DNA of 64,000 nt, taken from contig NZ_CP039695.1 of NCBI RefSeq assembly GCF_005145025.1, positions 2,165,501 through 2,229,500 on the forward strand, given 5' to 3'. Shown one piece after another: positions 11,661 to 41,997 of this stretch (its first letter is position 1; each line of letters begins with the position of its first letter). The notes beneath the pieces were generated by a model. It was not told the DNA's origin. It did no database searches and was given only the letters and a program-made list of their open reading frames with translations. A program made the translations under genes and the position numbers. The stretch is from Novosphingobium sp. EMRT-2 (GTDB lineage Bacteria > Pseudomonadota > Alphaproteobacteria > Sphingomonadales > Sphingomonadaceae).

Positions 11661-12656
11661 TCAGGCCGGTTCTGCCAAACTTTCGGCCGCCTGCATCGTC
11701 AGCTCGAGCGAGCGGCGGCGCAAGGCCGGATCGAAGGTGGAGCCGGACACGATCAGTTCGTCTGCCCGCGTCCGCCGCTGGAACGCGGCCAGCCTCTCGC
11801 GCACGGTGGCGACACTGCCGATCGCGCTGACCTGCCGCATGTGCTCCAGCATGGCGAGCGCGGGGGCAGGCAGCGTATCGCGGTAGCCGGGCACGGGCGG
11901 CGGCAGCTTGCCCGGATTGCCGCTGCGCAGCCGCACGAACGACTGGTCCATGGAGGATGCCAGCAACGCGGCCTCCTCGTCGGTATCGGCGGCGATCGCG
12001 TTGATCGCGGCCATGACATACGGCTTGTCGAGCGCTTCGGACGGCTGGAAGCGATCGCGATAGAGCGACAAGGCCGCGTCGAGATGGTCGGGCGCGAAGT
12101 GCGAGGCGAAGGCATAGGGCAGCCCCAGCGCCGCCGCGAGCTGCGCGCCGAACAGGCTGGACCCCAGAATCCACAGGTGCGGCTTTGCGCCTGCGCCCGG
12201 CGTCGCCTGCAAGGGCACCTGGCGATCGCCGGCGAACTGGGCCTGCAGTTCCACCACGTCCTGCGGGAAGTCCTCCGCCGCGCGGTTCACTTCCTTGCGC
12301 AAGGCGCGCACGATGCGCTGGTCCGCCCCCGGCGCGCGCCCCAGGCCAAGATCGATCCGCCCCGGATAGAGCGCATCCAGCGTGCCGAACTGTTCGGCGA
12401 TCACCAGCGGGTTGTGGTTGGGCAGCATGATCCCGCCCGCGCCCAGCCGGATCGTGGAGGTATAGTGGCCCACATGGGCAAGCGTGACCGCCACGGCCGC
12501 GCCGGCGATCCCTTCCATGCCGTGGTGTTCGGCCACCCAGTAGCGCTGGTAACCGCAGCGCTCGGCCACTTGCGCGAGCAGCGCCGCCTCGGCGAGCGCC
12601 TGGCCTACCGTTCCGCCCTCGACCACGGGCACGAGATCGAGGACGGACAGTTTCAT
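11661..12656 (-). CDS. LLM class flavin-dependent oxidoreductase (luciferase-like)
   Basis: This 331-residue bacterial luciferase-family monooxygenase is of the MsnO8/YhbW-like subgroup. The N-terminus [11 protein letters not shown] is typical, followed by [48 protein letters not shown] (seen as consecutive conserved blocks) and a conserved C-terminal helix. The family uses reduced flavin and oxygen, but the substrate is not predictable. Its start overlaps the stop of the TPR gene by 4 bases, and the hydrolase gene lies just upstream, so the three genes look co-transcribed. Confidence 0.9.
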
Positions 12657-13618
12657 GACGGTTTCTTCTCCGGCTGCGTCGCCCCGGAAGAGGGGCTGGC
12701 GGAAGGCGTGGCCCCTGATGTGGGCGCTGGCCCCAGTTGTTCAAGGTAACTTTTGGCCGTCTTCGCCTCGTCGCTGTCGGGCGCGGTCCGCACCACCGAT
12801 TCCCAGCTCTTGCGCGCGGCCTCGTCGCGGCCATCCAGAACCGCGATCACGCCGGCCTCCAGCCCGATCGCCGGATCGGTCGCGTCGAGATGCGCCGCCA
12901 CCTCGATATCGCGCTGCGCGCGCGGCATGTCCTTGTTGCGGCGGGCAAGCGTGGCGGACAGCAGCCAGCCCTCGGCCAGATCGGGGGAGAGCCGGTGCGC
13001 CTCGTCCAGCGCGGTCGCCGCTTCGGCCGGGCGGTCGAGCGCCACCAGCGCCCGCGCGCGATCGGTCTGGATGTCGCCCAGCGCGGCGTTGTCGGCATAG
13101 CCGCGCACCGCCACCGCCTTGTCCAGCCACACCAGCGCGCGATCGGGATGCCCGCCCGCCAGCGCCGCGTTGCCGGCCATCGCCATCAGCGGCACCGCCG
13201 CCACTTCCTGCAGCATGGGAACGCCGGCGATGGCATCGGCGAAGGCCTGCTCCGCTTCGTCGAACTGTCCCTGCTGGGTCAGGACGATGCCAAGGCACTG
13301 GTTGGCGCGCACGCGCTGTTCGGGCTTCTGCCCTTCCGCCAGCCAGCCGCGCGCCTCGGCCAGCCCCATCGCCGGATCGTGCAGCGCCTTGGCAAGGCAC
13401 ACTGCAAGCCGGTCTGGCGCGCGCGGCTGCGGCGGGCTGGCGGGCGCGGGCGAAGGCGCGGGATCGGCGGGGCGGTGACGGCGGGGAATCGGCAAGGCGG
13501 CGCCTTCCTGGGGCGAGGGGTTGGGGCCGATCTGCATCAGCGCGGCGACCGGCATAGGAAACCCGGCAGAAGCGGGAACAATCTGCGGAGTGAGCATCAG
13601 GATCGGCAGGACCAGCAT
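12653..13618 (-). CDS. TPR-repeat protein, probably exported
   Basis: A hydrophobic N-terminus (MLVLPILML) is consistent with a signal peptide. A Pro-rich linker (about 28-68) follows, then several TPR-like helical repeats through about residue 290 and a low-complexity Ser/Pro tail. TPR proteins act as protein-binding scaffolds, and no specific partner can be named. It sits between an alpha/beta hydrolase (10 bases upstream) and a luciferase-like oxidoreductase (4-base overlap downstream). The 321-residue length and the start are reasonable, but no strong ribosome site was seen. Confidence 0.8.
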
Positions 13619-13628
13619 CGCGCTTCCT

Positions 13629-14393
13629 TCAGGGGGCTTCCGCCACGCCCGCCCCCAACGCCGACAGCGTATCCAGCAGGATCGCGATATCGGCGGGGCG
13701 CGACAGGCGGTGGTCTCCGTCCTTGATAAGATGCACCTGCACGTCGGCTGAACGCAAGGCCGCCGCCAGCTTCAGCGAAAGCTCCCACGGCACGTCGGGA
13801 TCGCGCTGACCGTGCAGCAGGCGCACCGCACCGTCGAAAGCGATGGGGCCGTCCAGCATCCGCCGCGCCTGCCCGTCGGCCCAGAACGCGGGATGGGTCG
13901 GCGTGGGTTCGGGGCCATAGGGATTGTCCTCGAACACCGGCCGCCCCGCCGCCAGTTCCGCCTTCTGCGCGGCATCGTATCCCCAGTCGGTGAAGTCCGG
14001 CGCGGCGGCGATGCCGATCAGCGCCTCGACCATGCCGGGCAGCGCCTGGGCCACCAGCAGCATCAGCCAACCGCCCATGCTGGACCCGATCACCACGGCG
14101 CGGCCGATCGCGTGCGCGCGGATCAGCGCCACCACCTCGTCCCGCCAGCGCGACAGCGTGCCATCGGCGAAATCGCCTTCGCTTTCCCCGCAACCCGAAT
14201 AGTCGAGCAGCAGGCAGGCCCGCCCCGCCCCGCGCGCCCAAGCCAGCACCGCCTGCGCCTTGCCGCCGGCCATGTCCGACATATAGCCCGGCAGGAACAC
14301 CAGCGCCGGCTCGGCACCGGGCAGGAAGCGACAGGCGATGCGGCGGCCTTCCGGGCCATCGACCCTGGCGAGCGGAGCGGTATCCTCGGTCAT
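13629..14393 (-). CDS. Alpha/beta hydrolase (acyl-glucuronide esterase/ABHD10-like)
   Basis: This 254-residue serine hydrolase has its nucleophile elbow GSSMGG at Ser105, an acid in QRDPDVPW and a histidine in DGDHRLSR. A short FLPGYMSDM oxyanion segment lies near 33-41. The pattern matches small hydrolases related to ABHD10, which cleave thioester or acyl bonds (family knowledge). The true substrate is unknown. The ATG at 14393 is preferred to a GTG 30 bases upstream. It is the first gene of a probable three-gene operon with the TPR and luciferase-like genes. Confidence 0.8.
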   Translation of the reverse strand: MTEDTAPLARVDGPEGRRIACRFLPGAEPALVFLPGYMSDMAGGKAQAVLAWARGAGRACLLLDYSGCGESEGDFADGTLSRWRDEVVALIRAHAIGRAVVIGSSMGGWLMLLVAQALPGMVEALIGIAAAPDFTDWGYDAAQKAELAAGRPVFEDNPYGPEPTPTHPAFWADGQARRMLDGPIAFDGAVRLLHGQRDPDVPWELSLKLAAALRSADVQVHLIKDGDHRLSRPADIAILLDTLSALGAGVAEAP

Positions 14394-14459
14394 CGGCGGC
14401 AGGGTTAGCCGGAAAGGTCCCACAACGCCATCTTAACCCGGCCCTGCTAGCGCCGGATC

Positions 14460-15782
14460 ATGACCGAATCCCGGACCATCGCGCTGCGGCGCTTCGCGGA
14501 AAGCCGCGCGGCGCTGGTGCTGCTCCTCGCGCTGTTCCTGGTGCCGCGCGCGCTGCTGATCCTGCTGGCGGTGGAGCCGACATCGGACGCGGCCTGGTAC
14601 TATTCGCGCGCCGACATGCTGGCGCGCGGACTCGGCTACCTCGGCGATCACGGCGAACCGACCGCCTACTGGCCGGTGGGCTGGCCGCTGACGCTGTCGC
14701 TGGCGTTCCGCGCGTTCGGCACCTCGATCTGGACGGTCGGCCTGTTCAATCTCGCCTGCGCCGCCGCCACCGCCTGGCTCACGCTCGACCTTGGCCGTCG
14801 CCTTTCGGGTTCGGAGCTGGCGGGCCGCGCCGCGCTGCTGCTGCTGGCTCTCTACCCAAACAGCGCGTTCTACGTGCCGCTGGCGCTCACCGAGGTGTTC
14901 TACACCATGCTGCTGCTCGCGGGATGCCGCCTGCTGATCGCGCGGACGCCGCTGGCGCTGATCGCGGCGGGGCTGGTGTTCGGCGTGGCGACGCTGGTCA
15001 AGGCGCAGACGCTGGTGGTCGTGCCGCTGGTCTTCGCCATCGCGCTGGGACGCGCGCCGGGCTTCTGGAAGCGCCTGCCCGCCGCTATGGCCCAGGCCGC
15101 GCTGGTTATCGCGCTGGCCGCCGCCGTGGTCGCGCCGTGGACGGTGCGCAACCACCGCGTGCTGGGCGAATGGGTGGCGATCTCCACCAACGGCGGCATC
15201 ACCCTGCTGACCGGCAACAACGATAGCGCGCGCGGCGGGTTCACGCCCGAAGACCCGGTGGTGAAGGCGCTCGACGCGCGCACCGACCTGTCCGAAACCG
15301 CCTATGACGCCGAAGCCAAACGGCTGGGCGTGGCATGGATCAAGGCCCATCCCGGCGCCTTCGTCACGCTGATGCCGCGCAAGCTGGCAAAGCTGTGGGG
15401 GCCGGACGGCGAAGGGCTGTGGGCCTACGAGACCGGATCGAAGGCCTGGGCGCGCGCGCCGTTGGCCTTCCTCGCGCTCAGGGCCATCAACCAGCTGTGG
15501 TAATTCGCCCTGCTCGGCCTGTTCGCCGCCGCCGCCGTGATCGAGCTGCGCCGGCGCGCGCGCGCCGGGCTGCGCCCGATCGACTGGTGGGTGCTGCCCT
15601 ATGGCATCGCGCTCTATCCCAGCGCGATCGCCATGGTGTTCTCGGGGCAATCGCGCTTCCACTATCCTGTGATGCCGTTCGTCTGCGTCACCGCCGGGTG
15701 GCTGCTGGCCCGCTGGTTTGAGCGCCGCGCCAATCCGCCCGCCGTCAATTCCGCGCATGACTTTGCGCCCGCGGCCCGCTAA
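14460..15782 (+). pseudogene. GT39-family glycosyltransferase interrupted by in-frame TAA
   Basis: The gene encodes a multi-pass membrane transferase of the ArnT/dolichyl-phosphate-mannose type. SDAAWYYSRADML near residue 40 carries the expected catalytic Asp, and YWPVGWPL follows. After codon 347 the frame hits TAA at 15501-15503, yet the same frame runs on to 15782 with clear family-like C-terminal membrane segments (IDWWVLPYGIALYPSA, FHYPVMPFVCVTAGWLLA). One base change from a Tyr codon (TAC or TAT) explains it: the local reading is LW-stop-FALLGLF. It is therefore a recent nonsense mutation, a sequencing error or, less likely, a readthrough site. The intact length would be about 440 residues. 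Confidence 0.82.
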
Positions 15783-15792
15783 GAAGCGGCGC

Positions 15793-15867
15793 ATGACGAC
15801 GCTTCGCGCCATCACCACGACTACCACCACCCCGGGCAACCGGGGGCGGTTTCGCCTGCGCGCCTGA
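15793..15867 (+). CDS. Threonine-rich leader peptide upstream of thrS
   Basis: This 24-codon frame begins at ATG 15793, 10 bases after the glycosyltransferase frame stops, and ends at TGA 15865-15867. Eight of 24 residues are Thr, including six Thr codons in a row at 15814-15831 (ACC, ACG, ACT and three ACC). It ends 135 bases before the thrS start. Poly-cognate-codon leaders let ribosomes sense charged tRNA, as in the enteric thr operon leader (known). Here the cognate synthetase gene follows directly. Its Shine-Dalgarno is weak (AAGAAG at 15781-15786). Translation is inferred, not shown. Confidence 0.8.
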   Translation: MTTLRAITTTTTTPGNRGRFRLRA

Positions 15868-15953
15868 CGCCGCAGCGATGCCGCCGCCCGGTTCGGGCGG
15901 ATGGCGTCTCCTCCCGGACCGGCCTAAAGTTCCTGACGCCGCCCCTTCCGGCG
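15830..15953 (+). promoter_or_regulatory. Candidate attenuator of thrS: competing hairpins
   Basis: Directly after the Thr codons is CCCCGG-GCAA-CCGGGG (15830-15845), a stem with a GNRA tetraloop. Next is CCGCCCG/CGGGCGG (15884-15900). GACGCC occurs twice (15866-15871 and 15935-15940) around a single complement GGCGTC (15903-15908), so the two pairings exclude each other. The second GACGCC can also pair in CGCCG/CGGCG (15937-15953). That is the 1:2, 2:3, 3:4 logic of attenuators. No T-tract follows, so control may be Rho-dependent or translational. Which form is permissive cannot be judged by eye. Confidence 0.55.
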
Positions 15954-16002
15954 CGCGCGGCCTTGTGCCAAAGCGCCAGACGCTGACAGCCAGAGAGTGC
16001 CC

Positions 16003-17994
16003 ATGTCCGAGCTTCTGAAGATCACCCTGCCCGACGGTTCCGTGCGCGAAGTGGCGCCGGGCACCACCCCGGCGGACATCGCCGCCGCGATCGGGCCGGG
16101 CCTTGCCAAGGCGGCCCTCGCCGCGCGCGTCGATGGCGAGCTGCGCGACATCACGCGCCCGCTGGAAGCCGACGCGCAGCTCGCGCTCGTCACCGCGAGG
16201 GACGAGGCGGACGCGCTCGAACTGGTCCGGCACGATTACGCGCACCTGCTGGCGGAAGCGGTGCAGGCGCTGTTCCCGGGCACGCAGATCACCTTCGGCC
16301 CGGCGACCGACGACGGTTTCTACTACGACTTCGCGCCAAAGGATCGGCCCTTCACCGAGGAGGACCTGCCCGCGATCGAGGCGAAGATGCGCGCGCTGAT
16401 CGCCGCCGACAAGCCGCTGCGCCGCGAGGTGTGGAGCCGCGAACAGCTGATCAGCCGCTGGAAGCAGCAGGGCGAGACGTTCAAGGCCGAATGGGCCGCC
16501 GAGCTGCCGGGCGACGAGCCACTGACGGTCTACTGGTCGGGCGACGACTGGCTCGACATGTGCCGGGGGCCGCACCTCGCCTCCACCGGCAAGCTTGATC
16601 CGCAGGCCTTCAAGCTGACGCGCGTGTCCGGCGCCTACTGGCGCGGCGACCAGAAAAACGCGATGCTGAGCCGCATCTACGGCACCGGCTGGCTGAACAA
16701 GAAGCAGCTCGATGCCCACCTGACGCGGCTGGAGGAAGCCGCCAAGCGCGATCACCGCAAGCTGGGCGGGGAAATGGACCTGTTCCATCTCCAGCAGGAA
16801 GCGCACGGCAGCGTGTTCTGGCACCCCAAGGGCTTCCGCGTGTGGCGCGAACTTGAAGCCTACATGCGCCGCGCGATCGACGCCGCCGGCTATCGCGAGG
16901 TCAAGACCCCGCAGGTGATGGACGCGCGCCAGTGGGAGCAGTCCGGCCACTGGGGCAAGTATCGCGAAAACATGTTCGTGATCCCCGACGAGGTGCCCAA
17001 CACCGAGGACGACGGCCCGGTGATCTCGGGCGAGGCCGACTGGATGGCGCTCAAGCCGATGAACTGCCCGGCGCACGTGCTGATCTTCCGCCAGGGCATC
17101 AAGTCCTACCGCGATCTGCCGCTGCGGCTCTACGAGAACGGCTGCTGCCACCGCAACGAGCCGCACGGCGCGCTCCACGGGCTGATGCGCGTGCGCCAGT
17201 TCACGCAGGACGATGCCCACATCTTCTGCCGCGAAGACCAGATCGTCGACGAAGTTCGCGCGTTCTGCGCGCTGGCCGACCGCATCTACAAGGACTTCGG
17301 CTTCACGTATGCGATCAAGCTGGCGCTGCGCCCGGAAAAGCGCTTCGGCACCGAGGCGATGTGGGACCAGGCCGAAAGCGAGCTGCGCGACGCGGTCGTG
17401 CGCGCGGGCCTCGCCACCGAGGAATACGGCTGGGAGGAACTGCCCGGCGAGGGCGCGTTCTATGCGCCCAAGCTGGAATGGCACCTGACCGACGCGATCG
17501 GCCGCACCTGGCAGGTCGGCACGATCCAGTCGGACCGCGTGCTGCCCGAACGGCTGGACGCGAGCTACATCGCCGAGGACGGCGAGAAGCACCGCCCGGT
17601 CATGCTGCACCGCGCGATCTTCGGCTCCTACGAGCGCTTCATCGGCATCCTGATCGAACATTTCGCCGGCCGCCTGCCGGCATGGCTCGCCCCGGTGCAG
17701 GCCGTGGTCGCCACGATCGTTTCGGAAGCCGACGACTATGCCCGCGATGCGCTGGCGCAGTTGCAGGCAGCCGGCATCCGCGCCGAAATCGACCTGCGCA
17801 ACGAGAAGATCAACTACAAGGTGCGCGAACACTCGCTGCAGAAGGTCCCGTACCTGCTCGTCGTGGGCAAGCGCGAGGCCGAGGAAGGCACCGTCGCCAT
17901 CCGCACGCTGGGCGAACAGCAGCAGAAGGTGATGCCGCTGGCGGAAGCCATCGCCCTGCTGAAGGGCGAAGCGACGCCGCCCGATTTGCGGTAG
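16003..17994 (+). CDS. thrS: Threonyl-tRNA synthetase
   Basis: This enzyme charges tRNA-Thr with threonine and edits mischarged serine. The 663-residue product has the full domain order: TGS (about 1-60), the editing SAD domain with H77-xxx-H81 and C187-xxx-H191, the class II core with zinc ligands C355, H406 and H536, and the anticodon-binding domain from about 560. The ATG at 16003 follows GAGAG; a GTG at 15997 is also in frame. The threonine-rich leader and competing hairpins upstream suggest control by Thr-tRNA charging. Confidence 0.97.
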
Positions 17995-18004
17995 GAATGA
18001 GGCT

Positions 18005-18032
18005 GGTCCCGGGGGCCATCGGCCCCCGGACC
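18005..18032 (+). terminator. Terminator-like hairpin after thrS
   Basis: GGTCC-C-GGGGGCC pairs with GGCCCCC-GGACC around an ATC loop, with one bulged base, 10 bases after the thrS stop. The stem is strong but there is no T-tract. Confidence 0.55.
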
Positions 18033-18091
18033 GCCTTGAGCTTGGCAAGCACCATATTTGTGGACGCCGGCCCGGATGCTATACCCGCGCG

Positions 18092-18544
18092 ATGCGGTGG
18101 ATCATTCTCTGCGTTGGGCTCCTGACGGCCTGCACAGCCACACCCAAGACGGGCGATGAACTCGTGGACGCCGTCGTTGCGCGACAATTGCTTACGGCAG
18201 AAAGTCCATGCGTAGCCGTTGGCGGCCCAACGGCTATTATGAAGCCAGTAGCAGAAGCTGGCCCACCAGCCATGCTTACCGCGCAAGCCGTGAAGAACCC
18301 AGATGCCCGCCGTGCGGCCCAAGCCATCGCCATGAACTGGCGCGACATGCAAGCCGAAACAGCCAAGCTCTACGGCATTGCGCGCGGTCAGGATTGCGCG
18401 ATGCATGTGAACGGACCGGCCTATTCGGAAAATTTCGCGTTCGTGTCCTACGCCTCGCCGAACGGTGAAATCGGCGCTTATGTCTTTCGCAAAACCGAGA
18501 GCCGCTGGGATGCCATCGAGCAGGTCAAGCTCGGGTATTGGTGA
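18092..18544 (+). CDS. Uncharacterised lipoprotein
   Basis: The 150-residue product begins with a short hydrophobic signal and a lipobox LTAC ending at Cys14, so it is probably lipid-anchored in the envelope. I do not recognise a family. Two further cysteines lie in the mature part (SPCVAV and GQDCAMH) and might form a disulfide. Its base composition is visibly lower in G+C than thrS and dxs on either side, which may mean acquisition or relaxed selection. It is convergent with dxs and shares a terminator with it. Confidence 0.65.
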   Translation: MRWIILCVGLLTACTATPKTGDELVDAVVARQLLTAESPCVAVGGPTAIMKPVAEAGPPAMLTAQAVKNPDARRAAQAIAMNWRDMQAETAKLYGIARGQDCAMHVNGPAYSENFAFVSYASPNGEIGAYVFRKTESRWDAIEQVKLGYW

Positions 18545-18565
18545 AACCAGACAAGGACGGGGAGC

Positions 18566-18585
18566 GCGAGGGGTATGCCCCTCGC
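18566..18585. terminator. Bidirectional terminator between lipoprotein gene and dxs
   Basis: GCGAGGGG/CCCCTCGC with a TATG loop lies between the two convergent stop codons. On the plus strand it is followed by ACTATTTCCCCC. Confidence 0.65.
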
Positions 18586-18603
18586 ACTATTTCCCCCGTT
18601 TCC

Positions 18604-20550
18604 TCAGGCTCTAGCCTCGAGCGTATCGTGCTCGACGCCTGTAGAGTTGTGTCGGAGGGCGGTGAGGACGGTATCGACGATCTGGGGGGCGTTGAGGCCG
18701 GCTTCGTCGTACTGTTTGTCGGGGTTGTCCTGGTCCTGGAACACGTCCGGCAGGCGCATGGTGCGGATCTTGAGGCCCGCATCGGTCAGCCCCTGGTCGC
18801 TCGCCATGGTCAGCACGTGCGCGCCGAACCCGCCGATCGCGCCTTCCTCGATCGTCACGATGACCTCGTGGCTCGCCATCAGCCGCCGGATCAGGTCCTC
18901 GTCGAGCGGCTTGGCGAAGCGCAGGTCGGCGACCGTGGTGGCAAGGCCCTTGGCTTCGAGCTGGTCCGCCGCCTTCAACGCCTCAGCGAGGCGCGTGCCC
19001 AGCGAGAGCAGAGCAACCTTGCCGTGCGGCTTGTCACCGCCGCGCACGATCCGGCCCTTGCCGATCTCCAGCCGCTCCGGAACCGCGGGCAGCGCCACGC
19101 CGGTGCCGTTGCCGCGCGGATAGCGGAACGCGATCGGACCCGTGTCATGCAGCGCGGCGGTGTGCGTCATGTGCACCAGTTCCGCCTCGTCCGCCGCCGC
19201 CATCACCACCATGTTGGGCAGCGTGGCGAGGTAGGTCACGTCGAAGCTGCCGGCATGCGTCGCCCCGTCGGCACCCACCAGACCCGCACGGTCGATCGCG
19301 AAGCGCACCGGCAGGTTCTGGATCGCCACGTCGTGCACCACCTGGTCATAGGCGCGCTGCAGGAACGTGGAATAGATCGCGCAGAACGGCCGCATCCCCT
19401 GCGCGGCAAGCCCCGCCGCGAAGGTTACCGCGTGCTGTTCGGCAATGCCGACGTCGAAGCTGCGTTCGGGGAACGCCTGCTGGAACTTGTCGAGCCCCGT
19501 GCCCGAAGGCATCGCCGCGGTGATCGCGCAGATCGCCGGATCGCGCCGCGCTTCGGCCAGCAGGGCCTGCGCGAACACGCCGGTATAGCTCGGCGGTCCC
19601 GGCGGGGCCTTGGCCTGTTCGCCGGTGACGACGTTGAACTTCTGCACCCCGTGGTACTTGTCCGCCGCCGCCTCGGCCGGGGCATAGCCCTTGCCCTTCT
19701 GCGTCACGACATGGACCAGGCACGGCCCCTCGGCCGCGTCGCGCACGTTCTCCAGCACCGGGATCAGCTGGTCCAGATTGTGCCCGTCGATCGGGCCGAC
19801 GTAGTAGAACCCCAGCTCCTCGAACAGCGTACCGCCCATCGCCATGCCGCGCGCGAACTCGTCGGTCTTGCGCGCGGCCTCGTGCAGCGGGCGCGGCAGC
19901 TTGCGCGACAGCCGCTTGGCCAGCTCGCGCAGCTCCAGGAACGGGCGCGACGACACCAGCCGCGCGAGATAGGCCGAAAGCCCGCCTACCGGCGGCGCGA
20001 TCGACATGTCGTTGTCGTTGAGGATCACCACCAGCCGGTTGCCGGCGGCCTGCGCGTTGTTCATCGCCTCGTAGGCCATGCCCGCCGACATCGCGCCATC
20101 GCCGATCACCGCGATGCCCTTGCCCGGCGCGCCCGACAGCTTGTTGGCCACGGCAAAGCCCAGCGCCGCCGAGATCGACGTCGACGAATGCGCCGTGCCG
20201 AACGGGTCGTATTCGCTCTCCGACCGCTTGGTGAAGCCCGAAAGGCCACCACCCTGGCGCAGCGTGCGCATCCGCTCGCGCCGGCCGGTCAGGATCTTGT
20301 GCGGATAGGCCTGGTGCCCCACGTCCCACACCAGCCGGTCACGCGGCGTGTCGAACACGTAGTGCAGCGCCACCGTCAGCTCCACCACCCCAAGGCCAGA
20401 CCCCAGGTGACCGCCCGTCTGCCCCACCGCCGCGATCATCTCCGCCCGGACCTCGTCCGCCAATGCCCGCAAACGCGGCAACGGCCAGCCCCGAAAATCA
20501 ACCGGCGTCTCTACTCCCTCCAGCAAGGGACGGTCTCGTTCTAACGACAT
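18604..20550 (-). CDS. dxs: 1-deoxy-D-xylulose-5-phosphate synthase
   Basis: This is the first enzyme of the MEP isoprenoid pathway. It condenses pyruvate and glyceraldehyde 3-phosphate with thiamine diphosphate in the cytosol. The 648-residue length is normal. Visible family segments are the N-terminal [27 protein letters not shown], the ThDP motif [17 protein letters not shown] (about 155-170) and the transketolase-type pyrimidine domain with [11 protein letters not shown]. The gene stands alone, with 170 bases upstream to the zur-like gene and a shared terminator downstream. Confidence 0.97.
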
Positions 20551-20720
20551 CCCTGCGCCTTACACCCTTGCCCCCGGCCTGTCGATTGTGACAAGCCGGC
20601 AACGCCCGACGGAAAATACGATAAATGGCGCGGGCATGGCCGGCCGCGCCGCGCTCAAACGAACCACCGACGGGGCCAATGGGACGCGGCGATCCGCGCT
20701 GTGCGCGCGTGCCCGGCCGA

Positions 20721-21191
20721 TCAGGAAGGGGCTTGGCCGCAATCCCCGCAGCGGCCGCGGATTTCCACCACCGGCCGCACATCGGCGAAGCCCGCATCCT
20801 GCGCCGCCTGGCGCAAGGCACCGGTCAGGCGATCGTCATCGATATGGATCGTATGCCCGCACGAATCGCAGATCAGGAAGATGCAATCGTGGCGGCAGCC
20901 GGGATGGCTGTTGGCGACATAGGCGTTGGCGCTTTCCACACGCCGGGCCAGGTTGGTGCGCACGAACAGGTCGAGGATGCGATAGACGCTGTTGGCGGCC
21001 ACGCGCTTGCCCCGCCGCGCGCCCACGGTTTCGGCGATGTCATAGGCCGAGGCGGGCTTTTCCCGTTCGGCCAGCGCTTCGAACACGTCGGCGCGCATGT
21101 CGGTCCATTGTTCGCCCGAGGCGACGAGCACGTCGCGCGCGGCGCCGACCAGCGTGTCTCCGACGTGTTCGTGATGATGATGCCCCGGCAT
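20721..21191 (-). CDS. Fur-family transcriptional regulator, Zur-like
   Basis: This 156-residue metal-responsive repressor has a winged helix (about 40-95) followed by a dimerisation region. HPGCRHDCIFLICDSCGH and RCGDCG supply two CxxC-type zinc pairs and nearby histidines. That arrangement fits Zur, the zinc-uptake regulator, better than Fur. The N-terminus is a His-rich GHHHHEH, an additional possible metal site. No zinc transporter genes are in the window, so targets must lie elsewhere. Confidence 0.82.
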   Translation of the reverse strand: MPGHHHHEHVGDTLVGAARDVLVASGEQWTDMRADVFEALAEREKPASAYDIAETVGARRGKRVAANSVYRILDLFVRTNLARRVESANAYVANSHPGCRHDCIFLICDSCGHTIHIDDDRLTGALRQAAQDAGFADVRPVVEIRGRCGDCGQAPS

Positions 21192-21255
21192 GTGCCCTAG
21201 ATAGGAGCGCCATGCGCCCGGTGCAATCGCTCCGGAGCCATTGCGCCAGCCGGCC

Positions 21256-21933
21256 TCAGTTCACCGTGAACGAAGCTTTCCAGAACTGCGGGAACGTGCG
21301 CTTCAGCGCATCGACCTTGGGCACGTCCCAGCGGCGGATATAGCCGTGATCGGGGTTCCGCAGCATGAAGTCCTGGTGATAGGCCTCCGCCGCGTAAAAC
21401 CCGCGGTTGGGCTCGATCGCGGTGACGATCGGCGCGCGCCACAGGTTCGCCCGCCGCAGCTGCGCGATATAGGCGGCGGCTACGCGCGCCTGCTCCGGGC
21501 TCTGCGGCACGATGGCGTTGCGGTACTGCGTGCCGACGTCCGGCCCCTGCCGGTTGAGCTGGGTGGGATCGCTGGCCACGCCGAAGAATATCCGCAGCAG
21601 CTCGTCATAGCGGATGCGCGCCGGATCGTAAGTGATCCGCACCGATTCCGCATGGCCGGTGCGCCCGGTGCTGACGGTTTCGTAGCGCGCGTCGCGCGCG
21701 CCGCCGCCTTCGAAGCCCGATACCACGCTGGTCACGCCCTTCACGTGGCTGAACACCGCCTCCATGCCCCAGAAGCAACCGCCGGCGAACACCGCCGTGC
21801 GCCGTCCAGGCGCCTCGCTGGCCTTCACTGCCGCCTCGGGCGTGGCGACCACGCCTTCGGCCTGCGCGGGCTGCTGGCAGGCGGCCAGAACGAGCGCAAG
21901 CGCGACGGCCAGGCCCGGTGCCCGCCGCGTCAT
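21256..21933 (-). CDS. msrA: Peptide-methionine (S)-S-oxide reductase MsrA, lipoprotein
   Basis: This enzyme reduces methionine-S-sulfoxide, complementing MsrB at 100-600. The 225-residue product starts with a lipoprotein signal (LVLAAC at about 15-20), so it should act in the periplasm on a membrane anchor. The catalytic motif GGCFWG follows near residue 52, and downstream blocks (GVGTQYRN-like DVGTQYRN, YHQDFM) match the family. The ATG at 21933 shares one base with the stop of the small membrane protein gene upstream, suggesting coupled translation. Confidence 0.93.
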   Translation of the reverse strand: MTRRAPGLAVALALVLAACQQPAQAEGVVATPEAAVKASEAPGRRTAVFAGGCFWGMEAVFSHVKGVTSVVSGFEGGGARDARYETVSTGRTGHAESVRITYDPARIRYDELLRIFFGVASDPTQLNRQGPDVGTQYRNAIVPQSPEQARVAAAYIAQLRRANLWRAPIVTAIEPNRGFYAAEAYHQDFMLRNPDHGYIRRWDVPKVDALKRTFPQFWKASFTVN

Positions 21934-22100
21934 CACCGCGCTCCGGGCGCGGGCGCGGCGGCCTGCGCCACGTCTACCGGCGCGCCCGCCTTGGCGCCTT
22001 CCGCCCGCACGTCCGATCCGATCGAAAGCGCCATGCCGGCCGTGCCGATCAGGAAGCCGACGAGGAGAGCGCGGAAGAAGTCAGGCGTGAACAGGCCCAT
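21933..22100 (-). CDS. Small single-pass membrane protein upstream of msrA
   Basis: The 55-residue product has one hydrophobic helix (about 9-26) and an Ala/Pro/Gly-rich tail. I recognise no family. The stop TGA and the msrA ATG overlap (TGATG), so it is most likely co-transcribed and translationally coupled with msrA. The ATG at 22100 is chosen because it begins just before the helix. The coding call rests mainly on the overlap and the clean TM segment. Confidence 0.55.
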   Translation of the reverse strand: MGLFTPDFFRALLVGFLIGTAGMALSIGSDVRAEGAKAGAPVDVAQAAAPAPGAR

Positions 22101-39129: not shown

Positions 39130-41997
39130 TCAGTGCGCCGCGCCCCAACTGGCGCCGGTGCCGATCTCGACGCCCAGCGGAACCGAAAGTTTTACAGCGG
39201 GTTCCGCAGCGCCCGCCATGACCCGCTCGATCACCGGCTTGGCCGCCTCGACATCGCCTTCCGGTACCTCGAACACCAGTTCGTCGTGCACTTGCAGCAG
39301 CATGCGGACGCCGCCCAGCCCGGCCTCCTCCAGCGCGGGCATCATGCGCGCCATGGCCCGCTTGATGATGTCGGCGCTGGTGCCCTGAATCGGCGCGTTG
39401 ATCGCCGCGCGCTCGCTACCTTGCCGTTCCGCCTGGTTCTTCGAATTGATGCGCGGGAACCAGGTCTTGCGACCGAACAGCGTCTCGGAATAGCCGCGCT
39501 CGCGCACGCTCTCCAGCGTCTCGTGGATATAGCGCTGGATGCCGGGGAAGCGCTCGAAATAGCGGTCGATCATCGCCTGCGCCTCTTCGGCCGAGGTGCC
39601 GAGCCGACCGGCCAGGCCCCACCGGCTGATGCCATAGAGAATGGCGAAGTTGATGGTCTTGGCGCGCCCGCGCGTGTCGCGGTCGACATGGCCGAACATC
39701 TCGGTCGCGGTGCGCGCGTGAATGTCCTCGCCCGCTTCGAACGCTTCGCGCAGCGCCGGCACGTCGGCGATGTGCGCGGCCAGCCGCAGTTCGATCTGCG
39801 AATAGTCGGCCGCCAGCAGCACATTGCCCGGTTCCGCCACGAACGCCTCGCGGATCTGGCGGCCGATCTCGGTGCGGATCGGGATGTTCTGGAGATTCGG
39901 CTCGTTCGAGGAAAGCCGGCCGGTCTGCGCGCCGACCAGGCTGTAGCTGGTGTGGACGCGGCCGGTCGCGGGATTGATCGCGGCCTGCAGCGCTTCGGTG
40001 TACGTCGACTTGAGCTTGGACAGCTGGCGCCATTCGAGCACCAGCGTCGCCACTTCGGCGCCCTGCGCGGCCAGCCCTTCCAGCACGGACTGGTCGGTCG
40101 AATACTGCCCGGTCTTGCCCTTCTTGCCGCCCTTGTAGCCCAGCCGGTCGAACAGCACCTCGCCAAGCTGCTTGGGGCTGCCGATCGTGAACGGGCCGCC
40201 CGCCTTGGCGTGGATCACGGTTTCCAGTTCGGCGATGCGGGCGGCAAACTCGGCCGAAAGCGCGGCCAGCCGCTCGCGGTCGACGCGGATGCCGTTGCGC
40301 TCCATCATCGCCACCACCGGAATCAGCGGCCGGTCCACGCGCTGGTAGATGCGCGTGCCGCCCTCGTCCGACAGGCGGGGCTGGAACAGGCGGTGCAGCC
40401 GCCAGGTGACGTCCGCGTCTTCCGCGGCATAGCGCGTGGCGTCCGCCAGCGGCACTTCGGCAAACGAGATCGCCTTCTTGCCGGTGCCGCACAGGTCCTT
40501 GAACTTCATCGTGGCGTGGCCGAGATGCCTTTCCGACAGTTCGTCCATGCCGTGCCCGGCAAGGCCGGTTTCGCTACGCCCGGCATCCAGGCAGAAGCTC
40601 ATCACCATCGTATCGTCGATCGGCGCGACGGCGATCCCGCCGACCGCTTCTCCGGCGCGGGCGAGCACGGTAAGGTCGTACTTGATGTTCTGGCCGACCT
40701 TGAGCACCGCATCGCTTTCCAGCAGCGGCTTGAGCGCGGCCAGCGCCTCGGCCTTGTCCACCTGCACCGGCTTTTCCGCGAACATGTCGGTGCCGCCATG
40801 GCCCAGCGGGATGTAGCAGGCGTCGTTGGGGCCAAGCGCCAGGCTCACCCCGACCAGATCCGCCGCCATCGCATCGAGCGCGCTGGTTTCGGTGTCGATC
40901 GCCACCACGCGCGCCTCCAACGCGCGGGCGATCCATTGCTCCAGCTCGCCGATCGACTGGATGCAGGCATAGCGGCCCAGATCGAGAGCGGGCCATTCGG
41001 GCAAGGGCTGCCGGCTCGCGCTTTCGGGCTGCACCGGCGCCACGCCTCCAGCCCCCGCTCCTTCCCCGGTCGTCGGCGCGGCGGACACCGGAGCCAGCGC
41101 GCCGACGCCCAGCTTGCGCAACAGGCTGGTAAAGCCGTGTTCGCCCAGGAACGCCGCCAGCGGATCGGGCGGGATCGCGCCCAGCGTGAAATCGTCGAGC
41201 GGCAGCGGCAGGTCGCAATCTTCCTTCAGCGCCACCAGTTCGCGCGAAAGGCGCGCCATCGGCGCCTGCTCGATCAGGCTTTCGCGCAACTTGCCCGGCT
41301 TCATCGCCGGCGCGGCGGCCAGCGCGGATTCGAGATCGCCATGCTCCTGGATCAGCTTCGACGCGGTCTTGGGACCGATGCCGCGAATGCCGGGCACGTT
41401 GTCCACCGCATCGCCCATCAGCGCCAGGACGTCGCCGACCTTCTCCGGCGGCACACCGAACTTCTCGATTACTTCGGGCACGTCGATGCGCTGGTTCTTC
41501 ATTGTATCCAGCATGTCGATCCGCGCGCCGTTGGCGGCGGTGCCGACCAGCTGCATCAGGTCCTTGTCGGACGAAACGATCGTCACGTCCCAGCCGCGCG
41601 CCGCAGCCGCGCGCGCATAGGAGGCGATCAGATCGTCCGCCTCCAGCCCGGCCTCCTCGATGCAGGGCAGGCTGAACGCGCGCGTGGCGTCGCGGATCAG
41701 CGGGAACTGCGGCACCAGATCCTCTGGCGGCGGCGGGCGGTTAGCCTTGTAGTCCTCGTAAAGATCATTGCGGAACGAGACCGATCCCTTGTCGAGAATC
41801 ACGCCAAGGTGGGTCGGCCCATCGGCCTTGTGGAGATCGTCGGCCAGCTTCCACAGCATCGTGGTATAGCCATAGACCGCGCCGACCGGCACGCCCTGCG
41901 GGTTGGTGAGCGGGGGCAGGCGGTGATAGGCGCGGAAGATATAGGCCGAGCCATCGACCAGATAGAGATGCTGCCGGGAACTGTTGGTGCCGTCCAT
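39130..41997 (-). CDS. polA: DNA polymerase I
   Basis: This 955-residue repair and Okazaki-processing polymerase has all three activities. The 5' nuclease domain has YIFRAYHRLPPL, EADDLIASYA and DKDLMQLV. The proofreading domain keeps its motifs: DTETS for Exo I, NIKYD for Exo II and YAAEDAD for Exo III, so it should edit. The polymerase domain carries DYSQIELR, RGRAKTINFAILYG and LLQVHDELVFEV. The length and start are normal. Confidence 0.97.
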   Translation of the reverse strand: MDGTNSSRQHLYLVDGSAYIFRAYHRLPPLTNPQGVPVGAVYGYTTMLWKLADDLHKADGPTHLGVILDKGSVSFRNDLYEDYKANRPPPPEDLVPQFPLIRDATRAFSLPCIEEAGLEADDLIASYARAAAARGWDVTIVSSDKDLMQLVGTAANGARIDMLDTMKNQRIDVPEVIEKFGVPPEKVGDVLALMGDAVDNVPGIRGIGPKTASKLIQEHGDLESALAAAPAMKPGKLRESLIEQAPMARLSRELVALKEDCDLPLPLDDFTLGAIPPDPLAAFLGEHGFTSLLRKLGVGALAPVSAAPTTGEGAGAGGVAPVQPESASRQPLPEWPALDLGRYACIQSIGELEQWIARALEARVVAIDTETSALDAMAADLVGVSLALGPNDACYIPLGHGGTDMFAEKPVQVDKAEALAALKPLLESDAVLKVGQNIKYDLTVLARAGEAVGGIAVAPIDDTMVMSFCLDAGRSETGLAGHGMDELSERHLGHATMKFKDLCGTGKKAISFAEVPLADATRYAAEDADVTWRLHRLFQPRLSDEGGTRIYQRVDRPLIPVVAMMERNGIRVDRERLAALSAEFAARIAELETVIHAKAGGPFTIGSPKQLGEVLFDRLGYKGGKKGKTGQYSTDQSVLEGLAAQGAEVATLVLEWRQLSKLKSTYTEALQAAINPATGRVHTSYSLVGAQTGRLSSNEPNLQNIPIRTEIGRQIREAFVAEPGNVLLAADYSQIELRLAAHIADVPALREAFEAGEDIHARTATEMFGHVDRDTRGRAKTINFAILYGISRWGLAGRLGTSAEEAQAMIDRYFERFPGIQRYIHETLESVRERGYSETLFGRKTWFPRINSKNQAERQGSERAAINAPIQGTSADIIKRAMARMMPALEEAGLGGVRMLLQVHDELVFEVPEGDVEAAKPVIERVMAGAAEPAVKLSVPLGVEIGTGASWGAAH

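Follow-up and report, generated by a model that had tools for sequence, protein, structure and literature searches.

A predicted threonine-responsive leader-peptide attenuator upstream of thrS in Novosphingobium sp. EMRT-2 and its relatives

Why should a very short reading frame with a run of threonine codons stand just ahead of the gene for threonyl-tRNA synthetase (ThrRS)? The window analysed here, a 64,000-nucleotide stretch of the Novosphingobium sp. EMRT-2 genome (4.77 Mb in five contigs), contains on its forward strand a 24-amino acid (aa) frame, MTTLRAITTTTTTPGNRGRFRLRA, which begins with ATG at 15793-15795 and ends with TGA at 15865-15867. Eight of its codons specify Thr, and six of these are consecutive (15814-15831). 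The stop codon lies 135 nucleotides (nt) before the ATG of thrS (16003-17994, forward strand), the proposed regulated gene, whose product is a full ThrRS with TGS, tRNA_SAD, class II core and anticodon-binding domains as identified with Pfam; among 80 named ThrS loci, its nearest relatives are from Novosphingobium (best 92% identity). An earlier reading made from the sequence alone had described this arrangement, and its codon counts and spacing are exact to the base. The same sequence-only reading called the glycosyltransferase gene directly upstream (14460-15782) decaying, a description that is fair but mild, since a single in-frame TAA (15501-15503) interrupts a frame that is otherwise open to its end. 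The first piece of that gene has a PMT_2 domain (E 8.6e-7), while a domain search of its last 81 codons gave no family match.

The simplest answer would be chance: a Thr-coding repeat of GC-rich DNA that happened to fall near thrS. It is true that runs of six Thr codons occur elsewhere in this genome, with nine matches at seven distinct places (three overlap) when both strands are counted. The pattern is not over-represented (9 matches vs 44 for a reversed control pattern), and by arithmetic only about 0.0002 such runs would be expected in the 300 nt preceding any one named gene, counted on the strand of that gene. Six of the places, all except the one on contig C3, were compared by eye in the context of their reading frames, and that of the window alone was a short leader-type frame. 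The significance of the Thr run rests on its place and its conservation, not on its genome-wide frequency. Chance had been judged a poor explanation from the outset, and this was borne out by linkage to thrS across genomes, where there is one match per genome at thrS-linked sites in many genomes, and by the covariation of RNA helices described below. These comparative data rule out the chance reading, to which we assign a negligible probability.

Within 450 nt upstream of thrS, 21 of the 80 named loci have a short frame in which three or more Thr codons follow one another. A covariance model built from 20 copies (leaving out of its alignment the deletion variant L070, the Pacificimonas locus L072, and L076, a near copy of L075) adds L072, with the frame TPTTSTSVFRGRPGLA, bringing the loci with the element to 22 of 80. 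Neither the frame search nor the model detected the element in the other 58, counting L026, which has only 101 nt upstream. At E < 1e-6, the model search of the named loci returned only the window and L070 beyond the loci already known; the remaining six hits, among them one at 40289-40404 of the window, had E values of 0.18 to 0.65 and were taken as chance.

In the window's family, 145 of 397 genomes match the model, at full length and once per genome. Sampling of the order gave matches in 147 of 396 genomes, every one within this family, three genomes also giving a marginal second hit (E 7e-4 to 9e-4); sampling of the class gave 4 of 385, all again in this family and including the window's own genome. 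One hundred copies were aligned (90 family matches, the window's own and nine named loci), the other 54 of the 145 family matches, including the four weakest, being outside this alignment. All 100 have ThrS encoded downstream of the element, on its strand. Ten of these copies (L103, L109, L113, L121, L123, L129, L133, L137, L138 and L164) have a frame of 163-168 aa between the attenuator and thrS, which starts 10-13 nt past the last helix of the element (helix E, see below); the one inserted frame that was scanned is weakly similar to an Rv2179c-type 3'-5' exoribonuclease (E 0.0034, below the Pfam cut-off).

The sequence-only reading had proposed an alignment across Sphingomonadales, in which conserved Thr runs with synonymous drift would speak for a leader and orthologous upstream regions without a Thr frame would speak against it. 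Conserved, drifting runs were found, in the 22 named loci and the 145 family genomes given above. Orthologues lacking the frame were found as well (the 58 loci), but these cluster on the ThrS tree: among its 81 rows the leader label needs 8 changes, vs 20 for shuffled labels. The leader is present in 19 of 30 rows of a clade with Novosphingobium and most Erythrobacteraceae and in 4 of the 51 remaining rows, and is missing from the Sphingomonas, Sphingobium and Sphingopyxis rows. Such clustering points to clade-wise loss or gain rather than to noise, and the leader element reads as ancient within the order, with several losses, or gains.

Conservation at the leader is that expected of a coding frame. 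A run of at least four Thr is found in 93 of the 100 aligned copies, the peptide is 21-26 aa long in 99, and the start codon at the aligned position is ATG in 97 and GTG in one (the exceptions are L171, whose model start is out of frame, and L072, without ATG at the aligned place). Across the 93 leaders with runs of at least four Thr, the third bases of the last four Thr codons differ in 58, 54, 50 and 10% of pairs, and the Thr runs of 98 leaders have 73 different spellings; the first two bases are uninformative, since they are fixed by definition in runs selected as Thr. Retention of Thr while third bases drift argues that the leader frame is coding. In this respect the element matches what is expected of an attenuator, whose small ORF repeats codons for the very amino acid that the gene behind it is concerned with. 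Among the run codons of 98 leaders, 23% are ACT, vs 6% in the 5' part of thrS; this excess may reflect tRNA choice or the avoidance of pairing.

Past the Thr run, five regions can be distinguished: region 1 (CCCGG), region 2 (CCGGGGGCGG..GGTCGCG), region 3 (..CCGCCGCCC), region 4 (GGTTCGGGCGG..GGCGTC) and region 5 (CTCCCGAACC), followed by a final GACGCC. Their pairing on the forward strand gives five candidate helices. Hairpin A (regions 1 and 2; 15830-15845, CCCCGG-GCAA-CCGGGG) stands at the end of the Thr run, and helix B (regions 2 and 3; 15842-15889) extends over the codons for RGR and across the stop codon into the bases beyond. Hairpin C (regions 3 and 4; 15877-15908, CCGCCC/GGGCGG) is extended in this genome, taking the 5' arm of E. 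Helix D (regions 4 and 5; 15890-15920) pairs GGTTCGGG with CCCGGACC, and helix E (15903-15940), the proposed OFF structure, pairs GGCGTC (15903-15908) with GACGCC (15935-15940). B and D compete with C, and D excludes E.

Covariation was assessed by a swap test that does not depend on counting aligned pairs, and in which the pairing energy of a region with its own partner is compared with that obtained with partners from other copies (region borders were taken from the model-fitted alignment, and rows L171 and L173-L176 were dropped). Among 65 copies with less than 75% identity, the strongest signals are those of E (z -12.1), D (z -11.1) and B (z -9.9), the other 33 of the 36 region pairs reaching at most -3.6 (leader start with region 3). 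The same three helices lead among 30 copies with less than 65% identity, at -8.8 (E), -8.1 (D) and -6.8 (B), with the next pair at -2.7. The signal for A is weak (z -2.1 and -1.8). Hairpin C varies little, giving z -6.3 with narrow arms and -1.9 with wide arms; at one pair of the stem, G-C (60 copies) alternates with A-U (26) and G-U (13). On the model-fitted alignment, C and E together are paired in 98.8% of 1171 cells, and 94 cells are changed on both sides vs 23.7 in shuffles; when counted by pairs, 7 are changed on both sides vs 5.3 in shuffles, a value reached by 33 of 500 shuffles. Changes on both sides are seen in five of the six pairs of helix E. As naked RNA, the region of the window is only slightly more stable than its shuffles, 23 of 200 of which equal or exceed it (z -1.41), and no Rfam family, the thr leader included, matched at gathering scores in 12000-22000 or at E values up to 1 in 15700-16050. 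In L070, the Thr leader is kept, most of the helix C/D/E region is missing and the leader stop lies 50 nt before thrS; this deletion variant is perhaps a decayed attenuator.

Folding was predicted for 94 copies (rows L171, L173-L176 and L072 were left out) with the ribosome placed by hand so as to cover 15 nt counted from the A-site codon, or either 12 or 15 nt counted from the stop codon. With a stall in mid-run, B is predicted in 91 copies and D in 67, with C in 13 and E in 9. A ribosome at the stop codon gives the opposite set: with 12 nt covered, C in 88 copies, E in 81, D in 6 and B in none, and with 15 nt covered, C in 83, E in 80 and D in 9. The outcome is more mixed if the ribosome stalls at the first Thr codon (B 88, C 31, D 31, E 43) or at the last (B 87, C 41, D 46, E 26), and naked RNA has A in 68 copies, B in 46, C in 55, D in 13 and E in 54. 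In these predictions, clean switching is dependent on the position of the stall and is cleanest for a stall in mid-run. For the window itself, B and D are predicted cleanly in the stalled state, and the extended C (15877-15908) is predicted in the stop state; E is not formed there because the extended C uses its 5' arm. Covariation and predicted folding thus describe mutually exclusive helices, one set of which would be chosen by the stalled ribosome, as in an attenuator.

We consider it likely that this element is a ribosome-operated attenuator that senses the charging of Thr-tRNA and controls thrS. The switch is supported computationally by the conserved leader, third-base drift, the covariation of B, D and E, and predicted switching. 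Counting against it are the lack of a U-tract terminator in the scans below, the dependence of clean switching on the stall position, the stop state of the window with its extended C in place of E, the 58 named loci without the element, the slight stability of the naked RNA and the count of C and E changes by pairs. Transcription from a putative promoter, P1, would begin at the A of the leader ATG, and the leader would be read as a leaderless mRNA. When charged Thr-tRNA is ample, the ribosome would cross the Thr run, which is the proposed sensing (stalling) site, and reach the stop codon, covering region 2; hairpin C would then form, D would be blocked, and E (in this genome, the extended C) would form, giving the OFF state. 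With uncharged Thr-tRNA, by contrast, the ribosome would stall in the Thr run and region 2 would pair with region 3 (B), freeing region 4 to pair with region 5 (D), so that E would be blocked and more ThrRS would be made (the ON state). OFF would correspond to a loss of transcription before thrS, with release by Rho or by termination at a U-poor hairpin occurring at or just after C/E and directly before a further element, P2, which would supply basal, unregulated thrS expression.

P1 (15757-15784, forward strand) was read from the sequence and consists of a -35-like ATGACT (15757-15762), a 16-nt spacer and a -10-like CTAAGA (15779-15784). A P1-like pattern, defined after the sequences had been inspected, is seen in 78 of 98 copies, vs 1.2 in shuffles, and its spacing to the leader ATG hardly varies. 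Its TAx word ends 9-13 nt before the ATG (9-10 nt in 69 of the 78), a spacing that would place +1 at about the A of this codon. As a scan with a strict sigma-70 consensus found no promoter at the leader, the case for P1 is drawn from this comparison. Shine-Dalgarno-like words are rare before the leader (8 of 98 copies, search window of 11 nt) and usual before thrS (91 of 100, search window of 14 nt). Given the position of the putative promoter and the missing Shine-Dalgarno word, the frame probably encodes a leader peptide read from a leaderless transcript. P1 overlaps the glycosyltransferase gene at its 3' end.

The output step would differ from that of a classical attenuator. No terminator with a T-run was found in a scan of 15500-16100. 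In 61 copies (rows L171, L173-L176, L072 and L170 were dropped here and in the region 5 sequestration test below), the next eight bases contain 2-4 T after E and 0-4 after C, and the longest T run before thrS has a mean of 3.1 vs 2.5 in shuffles, with runs of 5 or 6 in 3 of the 61. The intrinsic terminator with a U-tract that defines the classical form was thus not found, so termination would be non-canonical or Rho-dependent, and we class the element as a variant that would work like a classical attenuator. Helix E encloses a loop rich in C and poor in G (C 0.39 and G 0.15; the sequence upstream of the loop has 0.37 and 0.33). In 69 of 94 copies the stop state leaves region 5 more exposed, although the mean change is small (0.42 to 0.52). 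Both features are compatible with Rho loading but do not prove it.

Directly past E is a CTT-N18-TGCCA element (15945-15973, forward strand) with a palindrome between its words, the putative thrS-proximal promoter P2. A fixed 21-nt spacing is seen in 55 of 64 thinned copies (the 10 inserted-gene copies were excluded, 10 of the remaining 90 had no anchor match, and the resulting 80 were thinned to 64). The palindrome gives z -5.8, with shifted controls at -1.7 and +2.4. With a pattern fitted after inspecting the sequences, P2-like elements are found near leader-less thrS in 36 of 58 loci, vs 1.35 expected, and in 20 of 23 leader loci; an earlier, badly set pattern had picked up 9 of the 58 and 1 of the 23. 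By eye, the P2-like word stays beside thrS in several of the inserted-gene copies. We infer that P2 is a second, thrS-proximal promoter or another kind of site; the layout P1 - attenuator - P2 - thrS would combine basal with inducible ThrRS supply. Across much of the order, the CTT-N18-TGCCA/TGGCA element keeps to a narrow range of distances from thrS, and in copies with a leader the palindrome within it covaries.

The leader switch could instead act on translation, freeing or hiding the thrS ribosome-binding site. Pairing of region 5 with the thrS start region gave z -3.6 in the 61 copies at first, and z -3.7 was obtained for -8..+3 in 83 unthinned copies; moreover, in 10 of the 100 copies E abuts the start region of the exonuclease-like ORF, 10-13 nt off. 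With tighter regions and thinned copies, however, z falls to between -1.0 and -1.8, and the idea that region 5 sequesters the thrS start, not being robust to thinning, was dropped. The window itself shows only a 3-base match, and by eye a gap of some 50 nt or more separates E from thrS in most copies without an inserted gene. Translational control therefore seems unlikely to us.

A yet less probable reading, to which we give little credence, is that the peptide is incidental and that the helices form a structured 5' element, bound for example by ThrRS in the manner of the E. coli thrS operator. Strong helix covariation would be expected of such an element, and ThrRS autoregulation in E. coli is mentioned as known in PMC2965389. 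An incidental peptide is at odds with the retention of Thr under third-base drift, with a start codon that 98 of 100 copies share in the alignment and with a length kept at 21-26 aa in 99; nor does the downstream hairpin have a kept anticodon-like loop (by eye). Such a loop had been considered in the downstream palindrome F and was dropped, as its UGU is not kept (by eye).

An attenuator responding to Thr-tRNA charging, the reading that we prefer, has several known counterparts. The attenuator of the enteric thr operon (thrL) has a Thr-rich leader peptide and an intrinsic terminator and controls biosynthesis genes. The window element would resemble it in its short Thr-rich leader peptide and in a stalled ribosome that chooses between RNA folds, but it precedes thrS rather than biosynthesis genes, and neither an intrinsic terminator nor an Rfam match was found for it. 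The E. coli pheM-pheST attenuator, in which a Phe leader precedes synthetase genes and termination is at a U-tract, shares the principle of a leader rich in the cognate amino acid before tRNA synthetase gene(s), and differs in its amino acid (Phe there, Thr here) and in its U-tract terminator. T-boxes act on thrS in Firmicutes, and in E. coli ThrRS autoregulates at the thrS operator. These systems share with the window element the physiological signal or the gene, whereas they use direct binding of tRNA or of protein to operator and a leader peptide would be used here. T-box control of synthetase genes in Firmicutes is described in PMC2494555.

Leaderless leader ORFs have a precedent in another alphaproteobacterium: Sinorhizobium meliloti trpL is described as lying at the 5' end of its transcript and as mediating ribosome-dependent attenuation (PMC7298713, PMC10117765). 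According to these accounts, a Trp biosynthesis gene is controlled there and leaderlessness was shown, whereas it is predicted here. Leader peptides before synthetase or related genes are also mentioned for Caulobacter crescentus, with a small CDS before trpS (PMC4117421), and for bacilli, with His leader peptides before hisS paralogues (PMC2965389); these involve other amino acids, and the likeness is one of description rather than of sequence. S. meliloti SEP5, a small ORF with six Thr codons and a possible leader peptide (PMC10117765), is reported there to precede an aspartate dehydrogenase gene and to have mixed Thr and Lys codons, unlike the element described here.

Our literature search, which covered open-licence papers in PMC, found none on thrS leader-peptide attenuation, in line with the sequence-only reading, which knew of no described Thr leader controlling thrS in sphingomonads; a prediction may have been published elsewhere. 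The element would thus represent charging-sensing control of an essential synthetase gene in a large bacterial group for which we found none described, and would fill the place held by T-boxes in Firmicutes. Being a compact, covarying two-state leader without a U-tract terminator, it also poses the question of how attenuators end transcription in GC-rich alphaproteobacteria.

Sphingomonads are not alone in having Thr leaders before thrS. A survey within the class covered 69 ThrS loci out of 142 genomes searched, 29 as flanked loci and 40 as stretches; the thrS start was set by position in 33 loci where the short stretch gave no alignment. Thr-dense short frames lie upstream of thrS in 3 of the 69, with 3 weaker ones on the opposite strand. 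When these three families were followed up under a looser criterion (four or more Thr in 8), a Thr leader was found in 8 of 10 loci of family f72 (e.g. MTARTTTTATTTRTSCGGP) and 13 of 30 of family f73 (e.g. MERRFSTAPANTTTVRT), with none on the opposite strand in either, and in 2 of 29 of family f58 (one of the two convincing; opposite strand 1), figures that are biased upward because the families were picked by a first hit that was counted again. Seven f72 loci (L260-L266) have CCCTCC..GGAGGGTTTTTT right after the leader and a strong intrinsic terminator with six T past it; judged from its sequence, the f72 arrangement is that of a textbook attenuator in another family, and it speaks in favour of the reading proposed for the window element. 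Rfam gave no match at the thrS leader loci of these other families.

It is possible, at what we judge somewhat less than even odds, that control of thrS by charging through leaderless Thr leaders is widespread in Alphaproteobacteria, having been built more than once or remodelled beyond recognition, and that its output in Sphingomonadales is U-tract-less termination (Rho-dependent, with loading at the C-rich E loop, which would be hidden in D under starvation) before a constitutive thrS promoter. By eye, -10-like words again lie close to the leader ATG in the f72, f73 and f58 leaders.
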